Part shown: in pieces, positions 1-24,736 of the stretch | How positions within the stretch are numbered: the first letter of the stretch is position 1 | Layout: each line of letters begins with the position of its first letter | Assembly: GCA_017882185.1 (NCBI GenBank) | Contig: JADGQA010000008.1 | Coordinates: forward strand, 1 to 35,350 | Direction of reading: 5' to 3' | Source of the DNA: Bacteroidota bacterium | GTDB lineage: Bacteria; Bacteroidota; Ignavibacteria; UBA10030 | Length of the DNA: 35,350 nt | Notes under the pieces: generated by a model | What the model was told of the DNA's origin: nothing | Databases searched by the model: none | The model's input: the letters and a program-made list of their open reading frames with translations, nothing else | Program-made: the position numbers and the translations under genes

Positions 1-296
1 CGGGGTGGTTTCTCGCTACGCGCAAGAAAATGAATTATTCCTAGCCTGCGCGCCGCAGATCAATGCAGGTGGCGGCCAACGGCGAAATGAGAGCAGCGTC
101 GTTATAGTAACACGCTGACGCGTGTTTCATTTATACGCCGCCTTAATGCGAAACCGTAGTTCGGGAAGTACGTTGGGAAAGGTGGTCACGCCGCAGCTCC
201 CGCCAGACAGAGACGGGATTCTCAATTCGACGAACAATTTAGCTGAGAGCCGCTAAATTGTGTCGAATTGGAATTAGCTTCGGTCCGTTAGGCGGC
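1..296 (+). repeat. attC-like long imperfect repeat, copy 1 (left end cut by window)
   Basis: This stretch has no convincing gene. It shares three ordered blocks with 2601-2820: a block around 20-55 (gcaagaaaatgaattatt ... gcgccgc), a block around 150-205 (gaaaccg..ttcggga.agtacgt ... gccgcagct ... cccgcc), and the terminal block at 277-296 (agcttcggtccgttaggcgg). The last block ends in GTTAGGC (287-293), which fits the integron core site GTTRRRY. Copy 1 carries extra sequence between its second and third blocks, including a strong hairpin. The left end, where the matching RYYYAAC would lie, is outside the window. A short ORF with a Shine-Dalgarno sequence starts 35 bases after the core, the usual cassette layout. 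An unrelated intergenic repeat family is the alternative, and no integrase gene is visible. Confidence 0.5.
224..269. other. Long hairpin inside attC-like copy 1
   Basis: The arms 224-231 (AATTCGAC) and 262-269 (GTCGAATT) pair, and so do 234-243 (ACAATTTAGC) and 252-261 (GCTAAATTGT). A two-base bulge separates the two stems and the loop is 8 bases. That gives 18 paired bases with no mismatch. No T-run follows, so it does not look like a terminator. It lies just before the GTTAGGC core and is absent from copy 2, so it may be a local insertion or the folded arm of this particular attC-like site. Confidence 0.6.
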
Positions 297-327
297 ATTG
301 GGTGCCAAACAATCCAAGGAAACGATC

Positions 328-438
328 ATGAAAAGCATCCGACGTATCCTTACGACCTTCACACGTTCTTCCGAAAATTGGAAATGCGTCCAAGATATGA
401 GTGTCTGGATGCTTGCTATCAAGCGGGCTTTTGCATAA
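328..438 (+). CDS. Short ORF after attC-like core, probably the truncated start of a lost gene
   Basis: This is a 36-codon ORF with an ATG at 328 and AAGGAA at 316-321, six bases upstream. It starts 35 bases after the GTTAGGC core at 287-293. The 202-residue gene at 2855 sits at nearly the same distance (39 bases) from the second core. The peptide begins MKSIRRIL and has no recognisable domain. It stops before any mature protein could form, so it is either a small cassette peptide or the 5' end of a gene whose remainder decayed. The T9SS remnant from 519 could be the other end of the same gene, but nothing between them proves it. Confidence 0.25.
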   Translation: MKSIRRILTTFTRSSENWKCVQDMSVWMLAIKRAFA

Positions 439-518
439 TTTTTCCTACGGGCGAGCAAGTGTAGCCGGGGAATGTGAGAGGCGTCCTCACTTGACGCATT
501 CGTCGACCTTCAGCAGCG

Positions 519-795
519 ATGGGGAAGCCAACCTGGCAATGTAATGATCCGAATATTGACCCGGATCCTCTTAATCCGACAACGACAATTTCGATTGTCC
601 TTCGAATGAGGTCATTTGTCGCGCTGAGAGTATTTGACAAGCTCGGGAAAAAGGTGGTTGTTTTGATTTCGGAAAAATGCCAGCGGGTATGCATCTTAGG
701 CAATGAGATGCGGCAATCTTGCTTGCGGCATCTATTTCTGTTAATTGCATGCAGGCCGATTTCATCAAACGAAGAGACCGGTCTTGCTCAAATAG
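519..795 (+). pseudogene. Decayed T9SS type A C-terminal sorting domain
   Basis: Three reading frames in succession spell out a T9SS sorting domain. The first frame (about 552-676) gives DPLNPTTTISIVL then RSFVALRVFDKLGKKVVVLI, matching the family's YPNPFNPTTTI..SLP and V.L.VFD.LG..V..L. The second frame, from about 674, gives KMPAGMHLRQ followed by TGA where the family has Trp. The third frame (727-795) gives GIYFC-stop-LHAGRFHQ then TKRPVLLK and a TAG stop. That matches the usual GVYFYRLQAG.F..TK.LVLLK ending exactly at a stop codon. At least two frameshifts and two in-frame stops make this a dead gene end. The parent protein cannot be identified. The intact fucosidase gene begins 56 bases later. 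Confidence 0.75.
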
Positions 796-851
796 CCATG
801 CATGAGATAGAAGCGATGCGGAATTCATCGCCTTATAATCAGGGGACCTAG

Positions 852-2285
852 ATGAAGAAGCGTGTGTTTTGTCTACTCACTTCTCTTGTTTTCATTTCTT
901 GCAGCAAAAAGGTATCAAGTATCGAACCCGCAACCGACGAAATAACTTCTGAGTCTCCGCCCATCGAGCGAACATATCCTTCGCCTTCTGCTCCTCAGTT
1001 GGAATGGCAAAATGGGAAGTTGGAGATGTTTGTTCACTTCGGAATGAACACCTTCACCGACAAGGAATGGGGCGATGGAACGGAAGATCCGCGGTTGTTC
1101 AATCCGACCGCATTCGACGCAAACCAATGGGTCACTGTCGCCAAAAATGCAGGATTCAAGTATCTAATACTCACGGCGAAGCACCATGACGGCTTTTGTC
1201 TTTGGCCTAGCAGGTACACAGAGCATTCAGTGAAGAATAGTCCCTACAAGGATGGCAAGGGCGACATCGTTCGCGAAGTCTCTGATGCTTGCAGGGATGG
1301 GGGGATCAAATTCGGAATTTATCTCTCGCCGTGGGATCGGCATGATTCGACGTATGGTACGGCAGCATATGACACGTATTACAGCAACCAACTCGCGGAG
1401 TTGCTAACAGACTATGGTGAAATCAGCGAAGTCTGGCTTGACGATGCTTATGGGGTAGGATTGGGTGGCCAGAAGCCTGACTATAATTGGCCTCTTTACT
1501 ATTCGACTATACGGCACTGTCAGCCCAACGCCTTGATTGCCAGTTTGGGTCCGGACATTCGTTGGATCGGAAACGAAGACGGGCTCGGGAGTGAAACCGA
1601 ATGGAGTGTCCGTCAGTCACAATACCCGGAGTACAGCGTAAACGGTTTGGATGTCTGGTGGCCATCACAGTGCGATGTTTCTATTCGACCGGGCTGGTTC
1701 TATCACGCCTCACAAGATGCCGAAGTAAAGACAACGGATCAGTTGCTAGACATCTATTTCAAATCTGTTGGAAGGAATAGTAATTTGCTGCTCAACGTTC
1801 CTCCCAATACCCAGGGGTTGCTTTCCGAGATCGATGTCCAACGATTGCAGGAGTGGCACGAATGGCTTGACAACACCTTCGCCCACGACCTGTTCTCTCA
1901 GAGTATTATACAAGCATCCAACACAAGGCACGATGTTGCTGATTATCCCCCCGAGAACTGCATTGATCACAATCCAATGACGTTTTGGACGACGGACAAA
2001 ACCGTGACGACCGCTGATATTGTCATCGACATGGGACAACCAAAGAGCATCAATCTCATTCAACTCGAAGAAGCCATCGAATATGGACAACGAATATCCA
2101 CCTTCGTTGTCTATGCGAATCAGAACGATGGATGGGTTAAGATTGCAGAAGGAACGACCGTCGGAAGGAGCCGCTTCCTGCAGTTCGCACCTGTCAGCAC
2201 TTCAAAAATCATGGTATCAATAACAGGTTCTCTCGCAGCTCCGGCTCTGAGCACCATTGCAGGATACAGCATGACCCAGCGATAA
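852..2285 (+). CDS. Alpha-L-fucosidase, GH29, lipoprotein with C-terminal F5/8-type C-like domain
   Basis: The product should release terminal alpha-L-fucose from glycans at the cell envelope. The first 17 residues form a lipoprotein signal (VFISC, acylated Cys17). The GH29 barrel covers about 45-340, with FVHFGMNTF near 60, KHHDGFCLW at 110-118 and IYLSPWDRH near 156. The likely nucleophile is D197 or D198 in EVWLDDAYG. E242 in RWIGNEDG is the likely acid/base by analogy with the GH29-B subfamily. Residues about 345-477 resemble a discoidin/F5/8 C (CBM32-like) domain (ENCIDHNPMTFWTT). The 477-residue length is normal for a GH29 plus such a domain. AGGGGA at 841-846 precedes the ATG by five bases. 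The gene stands alone between decayed fragments and attC-like repeats, which suggests acquired cargo. Family assignment is firm; glycan preference is unknown. Confidence 0.9.
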   Translation: MKKRVFCLLTSLVFISCSKKVSSIEPATDEITSESPPIERTYPSPSAPQLEWQNGKLEMFVHFGMNTFTDKEWGDGTEDPRLFNPTAFDANQWVTVAKNAGFKYLILTAKHHDGFCLWPSRYTEHSVKNSPYKDGKGDIVREVSDACRDGGIKFGIYLSPWDRHDSTYGTAAYDTYYSNQLAELLTDYGEISEVWLDDAYGVGLGGQKPDYNWPLYYSTIRHCQPNALIASLGPDIRWIGNEDGLGSETEWSVRQSQYPEYSVNGLDVWWPSQCDVSIRPGWFYHASQDAEVKTTDQLLDIYFKSVGRNSNLLLNVPPNTQGLLSEIDVQRLQEWHEWLDNTFAHDLFSQSIIQASNTRHDVADYPPENCIDHNPMTFWTTDKTVTTADIVIDMGQPKSINLIQLEEAIEYGQRISTFVVYANQNDGWVKIAEGTTVGRSRFLQFAPVSTSKIMVSITGSLAAPALSTIAGYSMTQR

Positions 2286-2339
2286 ATCCGGTTCAGTGAT
2301 CATGATGGTACTTCTGGCGAAGGTCTAATGACCAAATAA

Positions 2340-2594
2340 CGGAATTACGGATTGAACGCGCGATATTACTATCCGGTCGGAACCCAAGCAGTCTTTACGG
2401 GCGCCGGTTTTGTCTATTTTGTTAGTCTAGATGATTACGTCGGACGGTCCTTCACCCGAGAAATTGGAATGGATTTCTTTATTTCAAATCCCGTCGCCAT
2501 TGAGCCATCGATCCAGTACATCAATTCGCCCGCTCAGAATTCAAGCGACAATGCATTGATGATTGCAATCGGTTTTCGATATTTCATTCTTTGA
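2340..2594 (+). pseudogene. C-terminal fragment of an outer-membrane beta-barrel protein
   Basis: The frame is open only from 2340, after a TAA at 2337, and could start at a TTG at 2352. The encoded 80-odd residues look like the last strands of a small outer-membrane porin-like barrel: LNARYYYPVG, GAGFVYF, alternating aromatic segments, and an end in GFRYFIL with aromatic residues near the C-terminus. There is no signal peptide and no upstream coding in this frame, so the N-terminal part of the barrel is missing. It ends 9 bases before the attC-like repeat begins. It is probably a gene remnant; a short functional protein is unlikely because a barrel cannot form from this much sequence. Confidence 0.55.
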
Positions 2595-2600
2595 TAAATG

Positions 2601-2820
2601 GCCGCCTAACCAGTCGCTCCCCGAAGGGGTCCCTTCGGGACAAGCTGACGGCTGAAGCTGGGGCACGAACTCGCAACGCACAAGAAATGAATCATTAATA
2701 GCTAACGCGCCGCGAATGGAAAACGGATTTCGGATAGTACGTAAGGAGAGTTTTCAGCGCCGCAGCTTTTTACCCGCCGTGATGCACCTTTTGGCGGGAG
2801 CTCGGGTCCGTTAGGCAGCG
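2601..2820 (+). repeat. attC-like long imperfect palindrome, copy 2 (complete)
   Basis: The element opens with GCCGCCTAAC (2601-2610, R''-like GCCTAAC at 2604-2610) and closes with GTTAGGCAGC (R'-like GTTAGGC at 2810-2816). Inside these ends, GCTCCC (2616-2621) pairs with GGGAGC (2796-2801) at 5- and 8-base spacers, as the L boxes of attC sites do. A 9-bp inverted repeat, CCCGAAGGG/CCCTTCGGG (2620-2628/2631-2639), lies next to the left end. Three ordered blocks are shared with copy 1 at 1-296. The 213 bases between outer core ends is longer than a classical 60-130 base attC. The next gene starts 39 bases after the core. An ordinary intergenic repeat remains possible. Confidence 0.55.
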
Positions 2821-2854: not shown

Positions 2855-3463
2855 ATGACTATCACCAAATCAAGAGTAGGGCGATTCATTCTCCAAACCA
2901 TTCTACCAATCTTCTGTTCGGTTCTTGTAGGATTTGTCTTCTACCAAGGTCAGGTGTTCGACCGACATTACGGCGCATTTCAATTTCTTTGGAGTGCGGG
3001 TGTTGCGTCAGTCTTCTACTACTTTCTGGTGTATATTCGATCGCGAGATGCATTTGTGGCACTTATCCTTTTGTTCTTTCTGACGCTTCTAACAACTGAG
3101 TCTACTCGACCTGCATTCATTCTCCGAGACATTTTCTATGTCGGAGCGATCGGGATAACCATCTTTACGTACTTCAAGTATTTCAGGGAACATGCGCTTC
3201 TCAACTATGCTTATCCTCCGTTCGTGCTGGCTGGCATTTATGCTGTAGTCTCTATGAGCGCTTCCGAGATTCACTTGGCAATTATCCGAATCCTTGCAAT
3301 GGAGGACACTGGAGGAGATCTTTTGAGTCTTGCGACAACGACCGCATTCTTTGGGGTCTTAATTGGATTCGGAGTCGGCACAGGAATAACAATTAACGAG
3401 AAATTGGCTGGGATCAAGAAAGCCAAAGATACCATCGCCGCTGCCGATGGCAACACTTCGTGA
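2855..3463 (+). CDS. Small integral membrane protein of unknown function
   Basis: I do not recognise this 202-residue protein. It has about six hydrophobic segments: roughly 12-30, 44-62, 66-84, 94-108, 120-140 and 160-182. The loops are short and the C-terminal tail is mixed-charge (KLAGIKKAKDTIAAADGNTS), so it should sit in the inner membrane. No catalytic motif is visible. AAGAAGGAA lies 6-14 bases before the ATG. The gene follows an attC-like core by 39 bases and stands alone, as a promoterless integron cassette gene would. The 235 bases after it contain a short hairpin (CCCGA/TCGGG around 3489-3504) but no second attC-like element. Confidence 0.7.
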   Translation: MTITKSRVGRFILQTILPIFCSVLVGFVFYQGQVFDRHYGAFQFLWSAGVASVFYYFLVYIRSRDAFVALILLFFLTLLTTESTRPAFILRDIFYVGAIGITIFTYFKYFREHALLNYAYPPFVLAGIYAVVSMSASEIHLAIIRILAMEDTGGDLLSLATTTAFFGVLIGFGVGTGITINEKLAGIKKAKDTIAAADGNTS

Positions 3464-3698
3464 GAAGGAGTGCTTCGGACAAACGTACCCCGACTTCGTT
3501 CGGGCAAGCAAGCGATCGATTGAAGCGTGCCCGGCCTCGAGGCAAAACGGATTTCACGTGTTTGGTGGCTCTCATTGACAAGTCCACCACCTCTCGCAAC
3601 GCTCGAGATAATTTCTTATCATTGCATACACACCTGGAGTGACATTCGAGTTTCAAAGCACCCTGCTTCACTCTTCATACCCATAGTCAGGAGATACT

Positions 3699-5285
3699 AT
3701 GAGATTATTTCCTCGAATCCGACTTCTGCTGCTGTCGTTTCTCTTCTTTAGTATCAGCTCATGGTGCACTTGTCAGGTCTTCAATATTTTGGACTACGGC
3801 GCTCACAACGACGGCTCAGCGCTGGCAACGGAGGCGATCCGAGCTGCCATTCAGGCAGCCAAAGCAGCCGGTGGTGGAACAGTGTACATCCCGGCAGGCA
3901 AGTACGTTTCTGGCCCCTTCGAGCTCGTCAGCAATATGGTGCTTCACATTGAAGCCGGGGCAACATTACAGTTCCCTGCGGAACGACTTCCGTTTACGAA
4001 AGGAAGACACCAGAGCATTGAATGCATCACACCCGTGCCTCTCATAGGAGGACACAATCTCGAGAATGTCACCATTATGGGTCGCGGGGTCATTACCACG
4101 AACAACGCTGACTGGATAAAGATCATGGGCCGGAGTCCTGGATCTGCCGCCGGACCCAACTGGGCGCACCTCCTGGAATCGCTCGAACGGAAGACACCCG
4201 CGTCCGATGAAGAATACCAGAAGGCCGCACCCGAGCTGCGCCCTCCGTTGATCCAAATGATGAATTGCCGGAATGTCCTCATCGAAGGTATACACATCGT
4301 AGGCTCGGCAATGTGGCCGATCCATCTTTTGTATACTGAGAATGCGGTCGTCGATCACGTCGTCGTCGAAACCTATCCGGGAGTGCACACAGGAGGCATC
4401 TACATTGATTCAAGCCGTGACATACGCATCTCAGATTGCTACATTGATACCGGAGACGATGGCATCGTGCTCAAAGCGGGAAAGGATGCCGACGGATTGC
4501 GGGTCAACCGGCCCACGGAGAATGTATCCATTATAAACTGCACGGTTCACAGGGCACACGGTGCGGTGGTGTTGGGAAGTGAGACGGCCGGAGGAATCCG
4601 CAACGTGGTGGCAAGCAACATCACGTGCGACGGCACGCAGATCGGTATTCGTATCAAGAGTCGTCGGGGCCGCGGCGGAATGGTCGAAGATGTCCGCTTC
4701 AGCAATTGGACGATGGACCACGTCGGTCAGGCCATCAGTGTCACGAATTATTACACGATGGAAGGAGAACAAAGGACGAGCGAAGAGCCCGTAACGGTTC
4801 GCACTCCGATCTTTCGCAACATTGTCATCAGCGAAATAACAATCAACCACGCCCGTGTTGCGGTCAATATCGACGGACTGCCTGAGATGCCGATCGAAGG
4901 TCTGCATCTTAACAACGTGATCGCTTCGGCGACAATTGGATTGAAGGCATCCCATACGTTGGCGTTAGAGCTCCACAATGTACAGGTGAACGCAGACGCT
5001 GGACCAGCCTTCCTCATCCGGAATTCGAAGGAGCTTGATGTGGACAATGTTTCAACACGCAAACCGTCGACAGACTCTCCCGTGATCCGGCTGGACGACT
5101 GTTCGGGCGCCATCGTGAGAAACTGCCGGGCATTCGATGGAACGGGCATTTTTCTATCCGCCGCTCCGGGAAACCTGAAGGACATTGTGCTTCTTGGAAA
5201 TGTTCTGGGGTCGGCAAAGAGGCAGACTGATGAAGTCGGGGGACAATTCTGGCAGTCAATCGAACCCGCAACAGAAGATCGCTGA
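3699..5285 (+). CDS. GH28 family polygalacturonase-like glycoside hydrolase, secreted
   Basis: The family hydrolyses galacturonan or rhamnogalacturonan with a right-handed beta-helix fold. A signal peptide spans about 1-25 (RLLLLSFLFFSISSWCTCQ). The pectate-lyase-like N-terminal strand follows (FNILDYGAHNDG, AGGGTVYIPAGKYVSGPF). The GH28 signature is partly kept: DTGDDGIVLK with the paired D253/D254, RAHGAVVLGSE with H287, and RIKSRRGRGG with R318/K320. The first signature element, usually NTDGIDID, reads HTGGIYID (230-237), so the usual first Asp is Gly232. The enzyme may act on an unusual substrate or be weakened. 528 residues is within the family range. AGGAG at 3689-3693 supports the ATG. 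The PPC-domain gene follows 54 bases later, probably in the same transcript. Confidence 0.85.
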   Translation: MRLFPRIRLLLLSFLFFSISSWCTCQVFNILDYGAHNDGSALATEAIRAAIQAAKAAGGGTVYIPAGKYVSGPFELVSNMVLHIEAGATLQFPAERLPFTKGRHQSIECITPVPLIGGHNLENVTIMGRGVITTNNADWIKIMGRSPGSAAGPNWAHLLESLERKTPASDEEYQKAAPELRPPLIQMMNCRNVLIEGIHIVGSAMWPIHLLYTENAVVDHVVVETYPGVHTGGIYIDSSRDIRISDCYIDTGDDGIVLKAGKDADGLRVNRPTENVSIINCTVHRAHGAVVLGSETAGGIRNVVASNITCDGTQIGIRIKSRRGRGGMVEDVRFSNWTMDHVGQAISVTNYYTMEGEQRTSEEPVTVRTPIFRNIVISEITINHARVAVNIDGLPEMPIEGLHLNNVIASATIGLKASHTLALELHNVQVNADAGPAFLIRNSKELDVDNVSTRKPSTDSPVIRLDDCSGAIVRNCRAFDGTGIFLSAAPGNLKDIVLLGNVLGSAKRQTDEVGGQFWQSIEPATEDR

Positions 5286-18691: not shown

Positions 18692-19239
18692 GTGTCCCAT
18701 AGTCCTCTGTAACCCGTACGCCTCAAGATCTTGAATTCTCGGAGAAGCTTTCCCTTTCTTCGGAGTATTTGTCAACCTCCCTCCGCTTTTTATCACGAAC
18801 ACATATTTTCCAATCGGGATGAAGCCACCGAGTTCTGAAGAAGTTTTGTGATTTGTATTGTGTCATTCGATTGCCAGTATCGCGAGCTCATTCTGTTCTC
18901 CTTTTCTTCGTCATAGATGACAACTTCATCCTGTGGACGGCTACGATTTGTTCGGACTCCTCATTTCGTGTAAGAAATTTTGACAATGATTTCAGTTATG
19001 GGAATAATTTGTCGAATTTTCCCACATTAAATAAGATTATTTCATCTGAATTGAATTGCTGAATTGTTATACATTAATTTCAGGCAAAATGACCAATTAT
19101 TCATCGATCTGCCCTGAATCTAAATGCTACAAGGGGCACGACATTTGTCCGTGGCTTGATGAATAGCTATCTGATATAGGTGTTTCTGCTTTCCCTACAC
19201 AACATAGGATCATTGAAATCCATCGCAATAGGAGGGTCT
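18692..19239. other. 548-base intergenic region before the first cytochrome
   Basis: No sizeable gene is visible. The segment 18990-19080 is clearly AT-rich compared with its surroundings and carries TATACA at 19068-19073, without a good -35 box at 17 bases. A 25-codon cysteine-containing ORF lies at 19089-19166. GGAGGG at 19231-19236 is the ribosome site of the cytochrome gene. No clear terminator follows nfnB. Confidence 0.5.
19089..19166 (+). CDS. Possible 25-residue cysteine-containing leader peptide
   Basis: ATG at 19089, TAG at 19164-19166. The peptide holds three cysteines, at 8, 13 and 20, and one histidine (CPESKCYKG, HDICPWLDE). AGG lies four bases before the ATG, a weak ribosome site. 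It ends 73 bases before the nine-haem cytochrome gene and just after an AT-rich possible promoter. It could be a small protein or a translated leader. Chance is quite possible at this length. Confidence 0.2.
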   Translation: MTNYSSICPESKCYKGHDICPWLDE

Positions 19240-22179
19240 ATGAGAAGGTTTCTACAGGCTTGTTCTGTCTTGATGCTCATTTCTTTGCTACTGGCCGTAC
19301 CTGTTCTAGCACAGGTCGCGAAAATCGTCGTCAATGGTATCCCTGACAGGTACAAAAGTGCAAATTCGGGCCAAGTCACATCAGGTCTCAAAACAGTCGC
19401 CGTCGGAAGTCGTGTTGTCCTTTCCCCACTTATCTATTCCGGTCAGGGAACGAAGTACTCTGATGCCCTCGTCTCTGTGACAAGTGCGAATTGGTCCCTT
19501 ACCGTTGTTCCAATTGGTTCAACGGCAGCCATTGCGGACACTGCAGCAGGACTTAGCGGTAAAGTGGTTTATTTCGTTGCCGATTCAGCTGGCACCTATA
19601 CGATATCCATGACACCTACTCCAAGTACTTCACCGGCTACAGTGACACTGAATATCCTTGCCACAACTTATGTTGGTTCCGGAATAAACGTCGCACGCGC
19701 TTCAAGCGGCAATCCGGTCACATGCGATCCCTGTCATCGTGGAGGATTGGCTCAGAATTTCATTGATTGGCAATCAACCAATCACGCTCAAGCCGTCAAA
19801 AGAAAAGCGAATGAGGTCGGAGGTCATTTTGATAAAAAGAACTGTTTTTCCTGCCACGCCATCGGGGCCACCGGTCTCCCAACCCATAAAAACAACGGGT
19901 TCGATGATATGGCTTTACTGGAAGGTTTCCCAATCTCCATCCTGCCTGATACCATCGGAAAATATGATACACTCGCGGCAAAATATCCGAAATCGATGGC
20001 AACAACCGGAATTCAGTGTGAGAATTGCCACGGTCCTGCCGGCGCGCACGCCGCCGTAATAGCGGGTCAAGATCCGAAAAGCAAGCTTGACGAATCACTC
20101 TCCAACGCTCCATGCGATCAATGTCACTTCTCAACTGACCGTCACGGCATAGGTTACGCATGGACGGGTTCAGCTCACGCAAACGCGCCGGGCTCAGGAT
20201 CGAAAGTTCAGAATATGGATCGATTCCCTTGCGCGAAATGCCACACTGCTCAAGGATACATTTACAGCACAATGGGCGGCCAAGCGGTACCGAACAACGC
20301 GGGCAGCGTCGTGAGCTATGATAATCCAATGCCCGTCGGTTGCGTCACTTGCCACGATCCGCACAAGAACAACAATCCGACCATGGTTGAAACCGGTTTG
20401 ACCAATAAAGGTGCCTACACCTATCCTCAGTTGCGTGTCAACGATATCGGCGATGCATGCTTAGGTTGTCACCAGACGCGCATTAGCAGTAGTGGCCTTC
20501 ATGAAGCGCACCAGGGCTCGATGCTGATAGGCGCGAATGCCACTTCTTTTGGATTGGCAAACATAAAGGCTTACCGGGCGAATTCCTTGGATATGTCGAC
20601 CAACGTCGGGCTTTGGTCCGGTTGGGAATTCCCTGGTTATGTGTATTCCAATTCTTCCCACAGCAATATCAAAGAGCGCTGTGTGACATGCCACATGGCC
20701 CCATCTCCATCGAACCTCGCGGCCCAAGCAGTCAGCTATGCGATTCCTGATACGATGTTGAACAAGTTGGGTGGACACACGTTTAGAGTTGCATACACAG
20801 CTCCGGGCGATAGTGTGCCGGTGCTCAACCCAACCGGTTGCAAAGAATGTCACGGGACCGTCACGCTCGACTTCGTAGAATTGACGCAGACGAAGACGAA
20901 GTATCTCCTGACAACCCTGGCAACATTCTTACCAAAGCGCGATTCCGTAGGAACAGTGATTTCGTTCCAGGACACTGTTGCTTATCAGAACTGGAAAAAT
21001 TCTGCAACGTACGGCTATCTCAAGCGCGCATTGACCACCGCCGAACTCGCAGCCGCATACAATTATCAGTTTGTAAGCAATGACGGCAGTTTTGGAGTTC
21101 ACAACTTCAAATACACAGAGGAACTCCTGAACTCATCGATCGAACAACTGCAGCTAGGTGCGGGAACGGCCAGTATTGTGCAAATCAGGGATGTGCCGGG
21201 CGACAACGGAAAATCAGTACAGGTGGTATGGAACAAATTCCCGGCTGAAAATGCTGGCTACAATCGACTGACGAGTTACGGTGTCTGGAGGCAGGATCCT
21301 TTGCTTCCTGCAACCGGCAGTTCGGCGAGTCGATTCAACTCGTACACAGAAATGATTAAAGGAGGCACCGTCGGGAATCAGTACGTCATGGGAGCCTCCG
21401 TGTGGACGTATATTGCATCGGTTCCGGCTTCGAATCTAGCGCAGTACTCCTACATTGCTCCGACGTTGTTCGATTCGACAAAGACTGTAGGCATGAAGTA
21501 TTCAGCATTCTACATCTCTGGATATACTTCTGATCCGACGTACGTCTACAAGTCTCCGGTGGACAGCGGGTATTCGCTGAACAACCTGTTCCCATTGGCA
21601 CCGTCGAGCGTTGCAGCAAAATCGAATGCTCAGGGAATCACGTTAACGTGGGATCCTCCGACACAACGTGACATCGATGTTGTGCAGTACGTAATTTATC
21701 GCGGGACCTCAGCCAACTTGACGCCGACGTCGCCTCTGACCACCGTGAAGCTCGTAACGACATACCTCGATGCATCCACCACTTTGGGATCGACGTACTA
21801 CTACAAGATTGCAGCAATCGACAATGCCGGCAATGTTGGCGATCTTTCGAACGTAATCAGCCTGAGAGCAACCGATGTTGAAAAGATCGCCGGATTGCCG
21901 ACAGACTACAACCTGGAGCAGAATTATCCGAATCCGTTCAATCCGACCACTCAGATAGGATTCTCCCTGCCGAATGCGTCATTTGTAAAAGTTGGGATCT
22001 ACAATGTGTCTGGAGAACTCGTCCGCACACTCGCGAACGATGTGATGTCGGCTGGGATTTACCGATTTACCTGGAACGCAACGGACAATCAGGGGCGGAG
22101 CGTCAGCAGCGGCGTCTACATTTACCGTATCCAGGCTGATAAATTCGTCTCTTCAAGGAAGATGTTACTCCTGAAGTAG
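19240..22179 (+). CDS. Nine-haem c-type cytochrome with Fn3 and T9SS sorting domains
   Basis: This is a large extracytoplasmic electron carrier. From the ATG at 19240 (GGAGGG four bases upstream) it has 979 residues: a signal peptide at 1-24 ending VLAQ, an Ig-like beta domain (about 50-145), then nine CXXCH haem sites starting at residues 162, 202, 260, 292, 331, 368, 407, 481 and 534. Many other histidines could serve as distal ligands. A conserved segment (FVSNDGSFGVHN at 611-622) follows, as in NrfA-like and octahaem cytochromes. A fibronectin III domain covers about 787-876 and a type A T9SS sorting domain 892-979 (EQNYPNPFNPTTQI, SSGVYIYRIQADKF, MLLLK end). It should therefore be exported across the outer membrane and attached or released. 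The gene at 22610 encodes a paralogue; each has its own terminator. Confidence 0.92.
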   Translation: MRRFLQACSVLMLISLLLAVPVLAQVAKIVVNGIPDRYKSANSGQVTSGLKTVAVGSRVVLSPLIYSGQGTKYSDALVSVTSANWSLTVVPIGSTAAIADTAAGLSGKVVYFVADSAGTYTISMTPTPSTSPATVTLNILATTYVGSGINVARASSGNPVTCDPCHRGGLAQNFIDWQSTNHAQAVKRKANEVGGHFDKKNCFSCHAIGATGLPTHKNNGFDDMALLEGFPISILPDTIGKYDTLAAKYPKSMATTGIQCENCHGPAGAHAAVIAGQDPKSKLDESLSNAPCDQCHFSTDRHGIGYAWTGSAHANAPGSGSKVQNMDRFPCAKCHTAQGYIYSTMGGQAVPNNAGSVVSYDNPMPVGCVTCHDPHKNNNPTMVETGLTNKGAYTYPQLRVNDIGDACLGCHQTRISSSGLHEAHQGSMLIGANATSFGLANIKAYRANSLDMSTNVGLWSGWEFPGYVYSNSSHSNIKERCVTCHMAPSPSNLAAQAVSYAIPDTMLNKLGGHTFRVAYTAPGDSVPVLNPTGCKECHGTVTLDFVELTQTKTKYLLTTLATFLPKRDSVGTVISFQDTVAYQNWKNSATYGYLKRALTTAELAAAYNYQFVSNDGSFGVHNFKYTEELLNSSIEQLQLGAGTASIVQIRDVPGDNGKSVQVVWNKFPAENAGYNRLTSYGVWRQDPLLPATGSSASRFNSYTEMIKGGTVGNQYVMGASVWTYIASVPASNLAQYSYIAPTLFDSTKTVGMKYSAFYISGYTSDPTYVYKSPVDSGYSLNNLFPLAPSSVAAKSNAQGITLTWDPPTQRDIDVVQYVIYRGTSANLTPTSPLTTVKLVTTYLDASTTLGSTYYYKIAAIDNAGNVGDLSNVISLRATDVEKIAGLPTDYNLEQNYPNPFNPTTQIGFSLPNASFVKVGIYNVSGELVRTLANDVMSAGIYRFTWNATDNQGRSVSSGVYIYRIQADKFVSSRKMLLLK

Positions 22180-22231
22180 GCTGTGCACAAATCCACTTGG
22201 ATTTCCTTCAGGTGGGATCAAATGCCTAACG

Positions 22232-22265
22232 TGCCCGCGAGTGCACCGTTCTCACGGGCATTTCT
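22232..22265 (+). terminator. Rho-independent terminator of the first cytochrome gene
   Basis: TGCCCGCGAG (22232-22241) pairs with CTCACGGGCA (22251-22260), nine of ten positions, with a nine-base loop, followed by TTTCT. It lies 53 bases after the stop codon. Its sequence resembles the terminator after the second cytochrome. Confidence 0.65.
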
Positions 22266-22609
22266 ATCTGGTGCCAAATCCGAGCCTAGGTCCCGAAAGC
22301 CAAGAGTTGAAAGGCTTGCGCGGTTGAAGTTCTTGTTTCCCAACTTGAGGAATTCTAGGAATTTAAGACCTACAAATGATAATGTTGACAAATTCAGCGC
22401 ACAAGAATCTTCGAAATTGATTAGATTTTCAACGCGGCTGATTCCGCTTGACAGGCACGAGATTTGTCGCAATTTAGGCGTTCAAGCGTGATCCAAAGGG
22501 AACGGCTGAATGTCAAACAAGTAGTGTCAAGTCGTTTTCCGAATACAAACGACGAACATTGATTTTCTGCGGAGTATCAGAAGACAATTATTGAGGAAAG
22601 GAACTTGAA
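22266..22609. other. Intergenic region between the two cytochrome genes
   Basis: No gene is supported. Two TTGACA boxes occur, at 22385-22390 and 22448-22453, but neither has a convincing -10 at 16-18 bases. TGTCAA appears twice near 22511-22530. GAGGAAAGGA just before 22610 is the ribosome site of the next gene. A promoter for the second cytochrome must lie here if the upstream terminator works. Confidence 0.4.
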
Positions 22610-24736
22610 ATGAAGCGTTTAGCGACAATTTATACCTGCTTGTTTCTTGTCGGTATTGTCTGGACACAATCGCTTGCACAAATCGTAGAAATTGTACGAG
22701 ATGCACGATCCGACAGAACGAGAGACATCTCCGGTACATCTTGGCAAGTGAATAGCGGCTTGCGAGTCGTCGGAAAAGGTTCCACTGTTTATCTTTTTGC
22801 GGACACAACAGGCTCAGGTGCGGCAGCGGTAACATCATTTGCTTGGACTTTTCTTTCGCAACCAACAGGTTCGAACTCAACATTCTCAAATTCATCGGGG
22901 ATGAACACTAAGTTCATGCCCGACAGTGTCGGTCAGTATATCGTCCAAGTAACCGTAAACGGTTCAAAGACTGAACAGGATACAATATTCGCGAGCACGT
23001 ACGTTGGCGTTGCTAATAAATTCCCGTCATGCGGCTTTGTGTCCGCTTGCCACGGCGACAAATTAACAAGTTATAGTGGAACAGCCCACGCCAAAATATT
23101 CTCCCAAGGCATAACGGGTCAATTGGAAGTCAATACTGCTGGTAAGGGCACTTATTCACCGGTTTGCACCAAATGCCATACGACTTCTGGCGACCCTCTG
23201 CTGAATAACGGCAATTTCGGGTACCTAGCACATCAAACCGGCTGGGACACAACCTGGTATAAGCCCTACACAAAAAGCGGAATTTCCTATCTCATCCCCT
23301 ATCAGGACTCCACGGCATACAAGCAACTGACGACGACGCCAGCTTATTCCTCGATGGCGGGATTGGCGACAATCGGATGCGAATCCTGCCACGGACCTGG
23401 CGCAAACCACATGGGGGACGCAACAAAAATTGGAAAAACGTATGATGCTGGTGTATGCCAGACCTGCCACGACGCGCCACCTCACCACACGAAAGGAACG
23501 GAATGGACTCGCTCGGGACACGCAACGTGGGAAATTGGAAAAGTTGATGCCAATCGCATCAGTTGTTTCCCGTGCCACAGCGGAAGTGCATTCGCGAAGT
23601 GGATTGACGCCGGGAGAGTCACGAAAGTCAACAACGTTTCAATCTACGATACCTCGACAGTTCGTGGTCGCCCGTCACCCACAAGCGACATCGGGATGGC
23701 TCTTACGTGCGCAGCCTGCCACGATCCTCACAGTGCGGCCAACCTGCATCAATTACGGACGGTCGATGTCGATTCACTCAATAACGGTTATCAAGTTCCG
23801 GCGAGTTCGCAGGTCGGCGGTATGGGTCAGCTTTGCATGAATTGCCACCGTTCGCGTTATAATGTTGCAGCGAAGGTCAAATCAAACTCTGCCCCATATT
23901 ATGGATTTGCGGACCATTATGGCCCCCATGGCAATCCACAGGCTGACATGTACTTCGGTCGAAATGCCTGGCAGTATGGCGACTCCTCACTTACCGGTCT
24001 CGCCACACATCTCGGCGTCACCGATGCGTGCGTCACGTGCCATATGCCTGATGGTAATCACGAATGGTCCATGGTCGATTCGCTCGGTAATGACAAGGTC
24101 GCCGCATGTCAAACGTGTCACGGCCAAGGCATCACCAAGTTCACCGATATCATGGCTTCGTTTGACTACGACCACGACGGCAAGATTGAACCCGTCCAGA
24201 CAGAAGTTGAGGGATTGCTTGCTCAGCTCAAAGCCGGATTACCGATCGACGTAACCACGGGAGAGCCAACGCTCGCGATGAAGGACAGCCTCTTGGTGAA
24301 AGGAAACCTCAAGACAGTCGCAGATATATATGACTACACGTTCGTGAAGAATGATGGGAGCATGGGTGTGCACAACACGAAATATGCCGTATCGATTTTG
24401 CAGAAGGCACTCGGCTACTATCCGACCTATGTCAACAAGGTCGAACAGAAGCTTCCCACCACGTACGAGCTTGGTCAGAATTATCCAAATCCATTCAATC
24501 CAACGACGACCATCAGCTTCTCCGTGCCAAAACAGGAATATGTCGTTCTTGTGATCTATGATATGCTTGGCAAAGAGGTGAACAGGCTTGTCGATGGACA
24601 AATGAGTGCAGGCACCTTCAAGGCGACCTGGCGTGGAGATACTAAGAGTGGCGAAAAGGTTGCCAGCGGCGTGTATTTCTACAGACTGCAAGCAGGATCG
24701 TTTACCGCCGTCAAGAAGATGTTGATGTTGAAATAA
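22610..24736 (+). CDS. Multihaem c-type cytochrome with T9SS sorting domain and one CX5CH site
   Basis: This 708-residue paralogue of the 19240 gene has a signal peptide at 1-24 (LVGIVWTQSLAQ), an Ig/PKD-like domain at about 50-118, and eight CXXCH sites at 186, 257, 283, 319, 367, 409, 474 and 500. At 141-148 it has CGFVSACH, a CX5CH, where the paralogue has its first CXXCH. The remaining sites correspond one to one between the two proteins, and the FVKNDGSMGVHN segment is also shared. An acidic EF-hand-like loop (DYDHDGKIEPVQ, 519-530) follows the last haem; its twelfth position is Gln rather than Glu. The T9SS domain is 617-708 (GQNYPNPFNPTTTI, SGVYFYRLQAGSF, MLMLK end). The Fn3 domain of the paralogue is absent. 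AGGAAAGGA precedes the ATG. Predicted surface electron carrier. Confidence 0.92.
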   Translation: MKRLATIYTCLFLVGIVWTQSLAQIVEIVRDARSDRTRDISGTSWQVNSGLRVVGKGSTVYLFADTTGSGAAAVTSFAWTFLSQPTGSNSTFSNSSGMNTKFMPDSVGQYIVQVTVNGSKTEQDTIFASTYVGVANKFPSCGFVSACHGDKLTSYSGTAHAKIFSQGITGQLEVNTAGKGTYSPVCTKCHTTSGDPLLNNGNFGYLAHQTGWDTTWYKPYTKSGISYLIPYQDSTAYKQLTTTPAYSSMAGLATIGCESCHGPGANHMGDATKIGKTYDAGVCQTCHDAPPHHTKGTEWTRSGHATWEIGKVDANRISCFPCHSGSAFAKWIDAGRVTKVNNVSIYDTSTVRGRPSPTSDIGMALTCAACHDPHSAANLHQLRTVDVDSLNNGYQVPASSQVGGMGQLCMNCHRSRYNVAAKVKSNSAPYYGFADHYGPHGNPQADMYFGRNAWQYGDSSLTGLATHLGVTDACVTCHMPDGNHEWSMVDSLGNDKVAACQTCHGQGITKFTDIMASFDYDHDGKIEPVQTEVEGLLAQLKAGLPIDVTTGEPTLAMKDSLLVKGNLKTVADIYDYTFVKNDGSMGVHNTKYAVSILQKALGYYPTYVNKVEQKLPTTYELGQNYPNPFNPTTTISFSVPKQEYVVLVIYDMLGKEVNRLVDGQMSAGTFKATWRGDTKSGEKVASGVYFYRLQAGSFTAVKKMLMLK

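Follow-up and report, generated by a model that had tools for sequence, protein, structure and literature searches.

The left edge of the window (the whole stretch of DNA analysed, 35,350 nucleotides, which is the entire contig C82 of a 3.64 Mb draft genome assembled into 352 contigs and 96.5% complete) is very probably where a chromosomal integron cassette array ends, with two attC sites flanking a gene cassette. The array appears to be idle or nearly so, and would be either a CALIN-like relic or an array whose integrase gene (intI) lies in an assembly gap. The two elements are read as attC sites because in genomes of the same family their homologues, alike in sequence and in covarying structure, are attC sites of arrays with attI and intI at the head. 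The comparison set comprised 32 same-family genomes; one of them (G005) is Ignavibacteriae bacterium fen_1299, from which we infer that the genome of the window belongs near the Ignavibacteria. The features assigned under this reading are as follows.

1..293, + strand: attC 1, 3′ part only (R′ box 287-293, L′ region 276-286)
199..275, + strand: palindrome-rich insert of 77 nt in the right arm of attC 1, placed by comparison with the 13-site alignment and the module survey described below
287..2610, + strand: gene cassette of ~2.3 kb, from GTTAGGC at 287-293 to GCCTAAC at 2604-2610
328..438, + strand: 36-codon ORF, 34 bases past the core; no family match
519..851, + strand: 110-aa frame, probably a gene fragment; no family match
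852..2285, + strand: intact GH29 alpha-L-fucosidase with an F5/8 type C domain, 477 aa (PF01120, E 9e-45; PF00754, E 1e-9)
2340..2594, + strand: 84-codon frame, open but lacking a convincing start; probably a 3′ gene fragment; no meaningful family match
2604..2816, + strand: attC 2, complete (R″ 2604-2610, L″ 2613-2618, R′ 2810-2816)
2619..2640, + strand: palindromic module of 22 nt between the L″ box and CAAGCTG of attC 2
2769..2798, + strand: palindromic module of 30 nt between CAGCTT and the L′ box of attC 2
2855..3463, + strand: 202-aa ORF, 38 bases past the attC 2 core; last cassette gene or first chromosomal gene

An earlier note, made from the sequence alone, had described two attC-like elements at 1-296 and 2601-2820 that share three ordered blocks and end in GTTAGGC, the second also opening with GCCTAAC. 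The blocks measure 45, 55 and 21 nt (matching at 80%, 76% and 86%, respectively), and the local alignment of the two copies scores 43, whereas 300 dinucleotide shuffles gave 26 at most; the terminal motifs were confirmed at 287-293 and 2810-2816, and the opening motif at 2604-2610. The extents required correction: attC 2 runs from 2604 to 2816, and attC 1, ending at 293, is incomplete at its left end since the contig starts inside it. The outer boxes of attC 2 (R″ GCCTAAC and R′ GTTAGGC) fit the RYYYAAC and GTTRRRY consensus, and attC 1 shows the R′ box only. Pairing between the inner boxes of the second copy, as claimed, holds in part, at three of the six L-box positions; family-wide, 91% of L-box cells are paired, and they covary. 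The start codons said to follow each core by 35-39 bases behind a ribosome site are ATGs 34 and 38 bases past it (at 328 and 2855), preceded by purine-rich stretches, and the first of them opens a frame of only 36 codons. An Rfam scan of the window returned no matches.

When scored with R1, a covariance model built from the 13 aligned sites described below, attC 1 reached 25.4 bits (E 1.4e-4, in a smaller search) and lies outside the training set of the model, so that the check by covariance model proposed in the earlier note did recover positions 1-293. The score of attC 2 is 109.8 bits, but this site belongs to the R1 training set. Over 137 nt, attC 1 is 87% identical to an attC on contig C10 of the same genome. 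As a fold, the bottom strand of attC 2 does not stand out from its shuffles (z −1.10, with 29 of 200 doing as well), and in this site the left module is directly beside the first extrahelical base. The weak L-box pairing, the poor fold and the failure to find an integrase speak for decay of the site and not against its identity as an attC. Recombination of the window sites by IntI as folded bottom strands is putative.

The cassette holds one intact gene and gene scraps. Its termini are complementary over the core and 3 nt beyond it and, after a one-base bulge, over 3 nt more; other cassettes of the same genome match for 8 nt (C255) and 14 nt (C273) beyond the core. The frame at 519..851 has what we take, by eye, to be a resemblance to a type IX secretion tail. 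In integrons, IntI acts on the folded attC bottom strand and cuts at G^TTAGGC, and it is by this route that the fucosidase cassette would have been placed here. Past attC 2, neither model R1 nor shuffle comparison found an attC after the 202-aa ORF. A decayed third attC at 3461-3705 was considered and is unsupported: its alignment score was reached by 1 of 200 shuffles against attC 2, by 5 against the first C255 site and by 7 against the C10 site, but for each of the remaining four long attC sites between 16 and 90 of the 200 shuffles did as well. The 202-aa ORF has only distant homologues (in G025, G027, G028 and G029 and on own contig C242) and was discarded as a marker of synteny. Chromosomal genes follow at 3.7 kb of the window.

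The evidence from the family rests on an alignment, column by column, of 13 sites (ten from relatives and three from the own genome) comprising the R, L and second stems. In this alignment 96.2% of cells are paired, compared with at most 48.8% in slid controls, and four pairs have changed on both sides, compared with 1.4 in shuffles. Two extrahelical bases, C and A as read on the top strand or G and T on the bottom, are invariant in all 13 sites at a spacing of seven nucleotides. This agrees with the part of PMC2727003 on which we draw, which describes for attC an extrahelical G and, 6-8 nt away, a T on the bottom strand. Model R1 found matches in 22 of the 32 family genomes, with at least 78, 75, 49, 45, 25 and 20 matches in the six richest; these counts are lower bounds, 91 candidates having been scored per genome. 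Where arrays were read in genomes with an integrase, homologous attC sites with covarying L boxes adjoin it. In G009, intI heads an array running the opposite way, with 24 attC sites in the 28 kb read, and at their left ends the G009 attC sites are identical to a site on own contig C255 (C255b) over as many as 24 bases. Among 56 attC sites, lengths ranged from 80 to 350 nt with modes at 155-160 and 191-198 nt; 19 of the 56 exceed 200 nt, which bears out the observation that these elements are longer than classical attC sites and means that length-limited searches may miss them.

The boundaries of 50 cassettes were delimited by model hits and attI, and their ends are complementary for 8 nt past the 7-nt core, with match rates of 0.52-0.92 at positions 8-15 and background at position 16. 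Exact terminal runs of at least 4 nt occur in 38 of the 50 cassettes, compared with 4.5% of 2450 mismatched pairs, and several of the misses are boundary shifts of one or two bases. Once the cassette is circular, TTRRRY together with these 8 bp may complete a recombinase arm in its attC. End complementarity as a hallmark of the family was dropped, three of six cassettes in two class 1/3 records also showing 5-6 nt; in this small and less regular sample the other three show 0, 1 and 2 nt beyond the core.

Two observations named beforehand as fatal to an integron, an absence of integrase from every related genome and copies scattered without cassette order, were not what we found. An integron integrase over the TIGR02249 family cut-off is present in 10 of the 32 same-family genomes, and the additional copies in the own genome, wherever a contig is long enough to judge, are separated by short ORFs in the manner of cassettes. 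The own genome contains no TIGR02249 match over the cut-off; its tyrosine recombinases on C265 and C228 were rejected as intI (25-28% identical, without the ~35-residue insert of the IntI of five relatives). The attI 13-mer CTAATCATAGTTA occurs at 16 sites in five of ten genomes examined. Four of these attI-like sites are ~250-290 bp upstream of an intI start (G004 C49, G005 C29 and C56, G009 C7). At the other 12 the stretch read contains no intact intI; nine of these belong to relatives, seven of the nine with an R1 attC within 3 kb, and three are the own sites on C47, C347 and C141. Own contig C255 carries an attI-like variant. Neither intI nor a remnant of it was found in the upstream stretch read beside the own sites on C47 and C347 and the C255 variant. 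Clusters headed by attI without an intact intI are present in G004, G005, G006 and G009; on G009 C8 (L130:7678-7899) a 74-aa N-terminal intI remnant occupies the correct divergent place by the attI-like site, so at least that site is a decayed integron. The sequences upstream of the attI core in these four genomes (L114-L129) fall into two classes, each made up of repeated small palindromes ~40 bp apart. Heads of this kind number several per genome, with intI at only some of them.

Elsewhere in the own genome, related attC copies were found on C255 and C273, two on each, and on C10, C141 and C347. The genome-wide R1 scan, with E up to 5, listed six own sites (attC 2, both on C255, both on C273, and C10), and attC 1, absent from that list, was recovered in the smaller search. 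Own sites outside the training set scored 45.6, 28.2, 25.4 (attC 1) and 25.2 bits, and the L boxes of the own sites aligned are broken. One attC on C273 contains an IS110-family element (435-aa DEDD transposase; PF01548, PF02371) at the point occupied by the left module in other sites; the insertion spans ~1877-3435 of L026, with CT at both junctions. At C141:39-137 the left part is attC and the right part attI-like. Further along C141 (L111, 830-3330), about five more repeats unlike the window attC stand between short ORFs; their best pair scores 122, compared with a shuffle maximum of 41, and they are perhaps a second, more decayed attC type. The C141 cassette at 2254-2660 has, by eye, long complementary ends. 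Between the two attC sites of C255 (L028:4003-4605) is a cassette for a ClpP-like protease, whose neighbor encodes a TFIIB-type zinc-ribbon protein.

That the array is idle or nearly so is suggested by the lack of intI in the assembly, the broken L-box pairing, the palindromes in the attC arms and the attC split by IS110 elsewhere in the genome. The broken L boxes, the gene fragments and the split attC likewise favor the earlier suggestion of an integron edge with decaying cargo. With at least two attC sites and no integrase in the window or its assembly, the array corresponds to a CALIN, an outcome that a split draft could also produce; intI (TIGR02249) together with attI, which defines an integron, was found in same-family genomes and not in the own genome. 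The portions of PMC9024848 (IntegronFinder 2.0) used here define CALIN and report complete integrons in Chlorobi and Ignavibacteriae. The proposal of an unusual integron in this phylum, with an integrase to be found, is upheld by the integrases of relatives but finds none in the own draft, and the array is, on the strength of those portions, a further member in a phylum already known for integrons.

Within this reading, the window could be a small satellite array apart from a main one, left by past cassette integration at a secondary site or by loss of intI; we consider this a real possibility, to be given somewhat less than even weight. It agrees with the dispersal of G009 attC clusters over six contigs (C1, C7, C8, C9, C15 and C16), with the attI-headed clusters lacking intact intI in four relatives, one with the 74-aa remnant, and with the chromosomal genes that follow at 3.7 kb. 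Against it, the contig starts inside attC 1, which implies at least one more cassette upstream, and the empty-site comparison proved impossible, the neighboring PMT gene having homologues in only three other genomes (best 43% identical). Rather unlikely is a complete, working integron whose intI is missing because contigs of the draft break at attC repeats. Contigs C82, C141 and C347 do start inside an attC or no more than 40 bases from one, C47 ends ~190 bases after its attI-like site, the genome is in 352 contigs at 96.5% completeness, and the part of PMC9024848 consulted describes this artefact for draft genomes; but the three attI-like sites on C47, C347 and C255 have no intI or remnant in the stretch read, and the L boxes of the own sites aligned are broken. 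A dispersed intergenic repeat (MITE- or REP-like) ending in GTTAGGC by chance would account for palindrome-carrying copies on several contigs. In the relatives, however, the location of the sites in arrays adjoining intI and attI refutes it, as does, for the window, homology to those sites, and L-box covariation, canonical extrahelical bases and cassette-specific end complementarity leave it next to no probability.

The attC sites of the decaying array share with some relatives a further property, palindromic inserts at the same two points of the site. We counted as modules inserts of more than 5 nt at the point between L″ and CAAGCTG or between CAG and the L′ box; their sequences differ between genomes. 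Among sites on integrase-bearing contigs (G009, G004 and G005) none of 27 has a module, compared with 13 of 24 in satellite arrays and 5 of 7 in the own genome (Fisher 5e-6 and 8e-5), with the qualification that the sites are not independent, the same module recurring within one genome. Fifty-nine sites were measured, opposite-strand matches, one 80-nt G004 match and weak G006 matches having been excluded beforehand, and a G004 site whose right arm contains Ns was then removed from the count; some rows were scored by eye, and the ambiguous own sites C10 and C273b were counted as without a module. The left module of attC 2 recurs in the attC that opens own contig C141, its right module is related to one in C255b, and other palindromes occur in the own genome at the same or adjoining points. 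In G009, a 38-nt left module appears eight times, each time at the same attC base, and is absent from six other genomes; with all eight copies inside attC, a general genomic repeat was rejected for this module. The pattern used to search for the right module contained six attC letters and was thus biased. Derivation from the IS110 element seems unlikely, the ends being unalike by eye.

Compact, left-only, right-only and double sites are all present in the G009 C16 array. The modules may be tolerated, may silence their sites or may be a product of decay. A speculative and, on balance, improbable proposal is that palindromic modules restricted to attC enter these sites at two fixed points, by the L box and the extrahelical base, to give a multi-branched single-strand fold. 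The modules would then spread among cassettes that are still recombining, as site-specific mini-elements or as a means of quieting attC in satellite arrays. According to the part of the review PMC8946536 used here, replicative recombination falls by up to four logs in attC sites with long terminal structures, so the module-bearing sites may be slow. A literature search of partial coverage, weak evidence for novelty, gave no earlier record of hairpin modules in attC arms; module-bearing attC is possibly a new variant, and the gain of extra hairpins at fixed points may be a form of attC change without earlier record. Such natural sites, with hairpins where the integrase recognizes the folded strand, would allow tests of structure tolerance and of the silencing of arrays after loss of the integrase.

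Among known systems, chromosomal (sedentary) integrons and CALINs are closest, alike in R and L boxes, unpaired spacer, extrahelical bases and single-ORF cassettes and, in same-family genomes, in attI with divergent intI. The present arrays differ in the longer attC, the several attI-like sites per genome and the palindromic modules in the attC arms, and in this genome no intI was found. The Ignavibacteriae/Chlorobi integrons of PMC9024848 belong to the same phylum-level group, and the portions of that paper used here leave attC structure undescribed. The build of C141:39-137, attC on the left and attI on the right, resembles the Delta-attI cassettes of class 1 and 2 integrons in the part of PMC12901181 consulted, but differs in keeping most of the attC left arm. 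The results document integron arrays with dozens of attC sites and several attI-like heads per genome in an Ignavibacteria-related family.

Members of the IS1111-attC group, IS110/IS1111-family elements, target attC; the IS110-family element inside the C273 attC is alike in position, as a single insertion. Farther along the window, at 19180-24736, two large proteins match multihaem cytochromes weakly and carry type IX secretion sorting tails that score over the curated cut-off.
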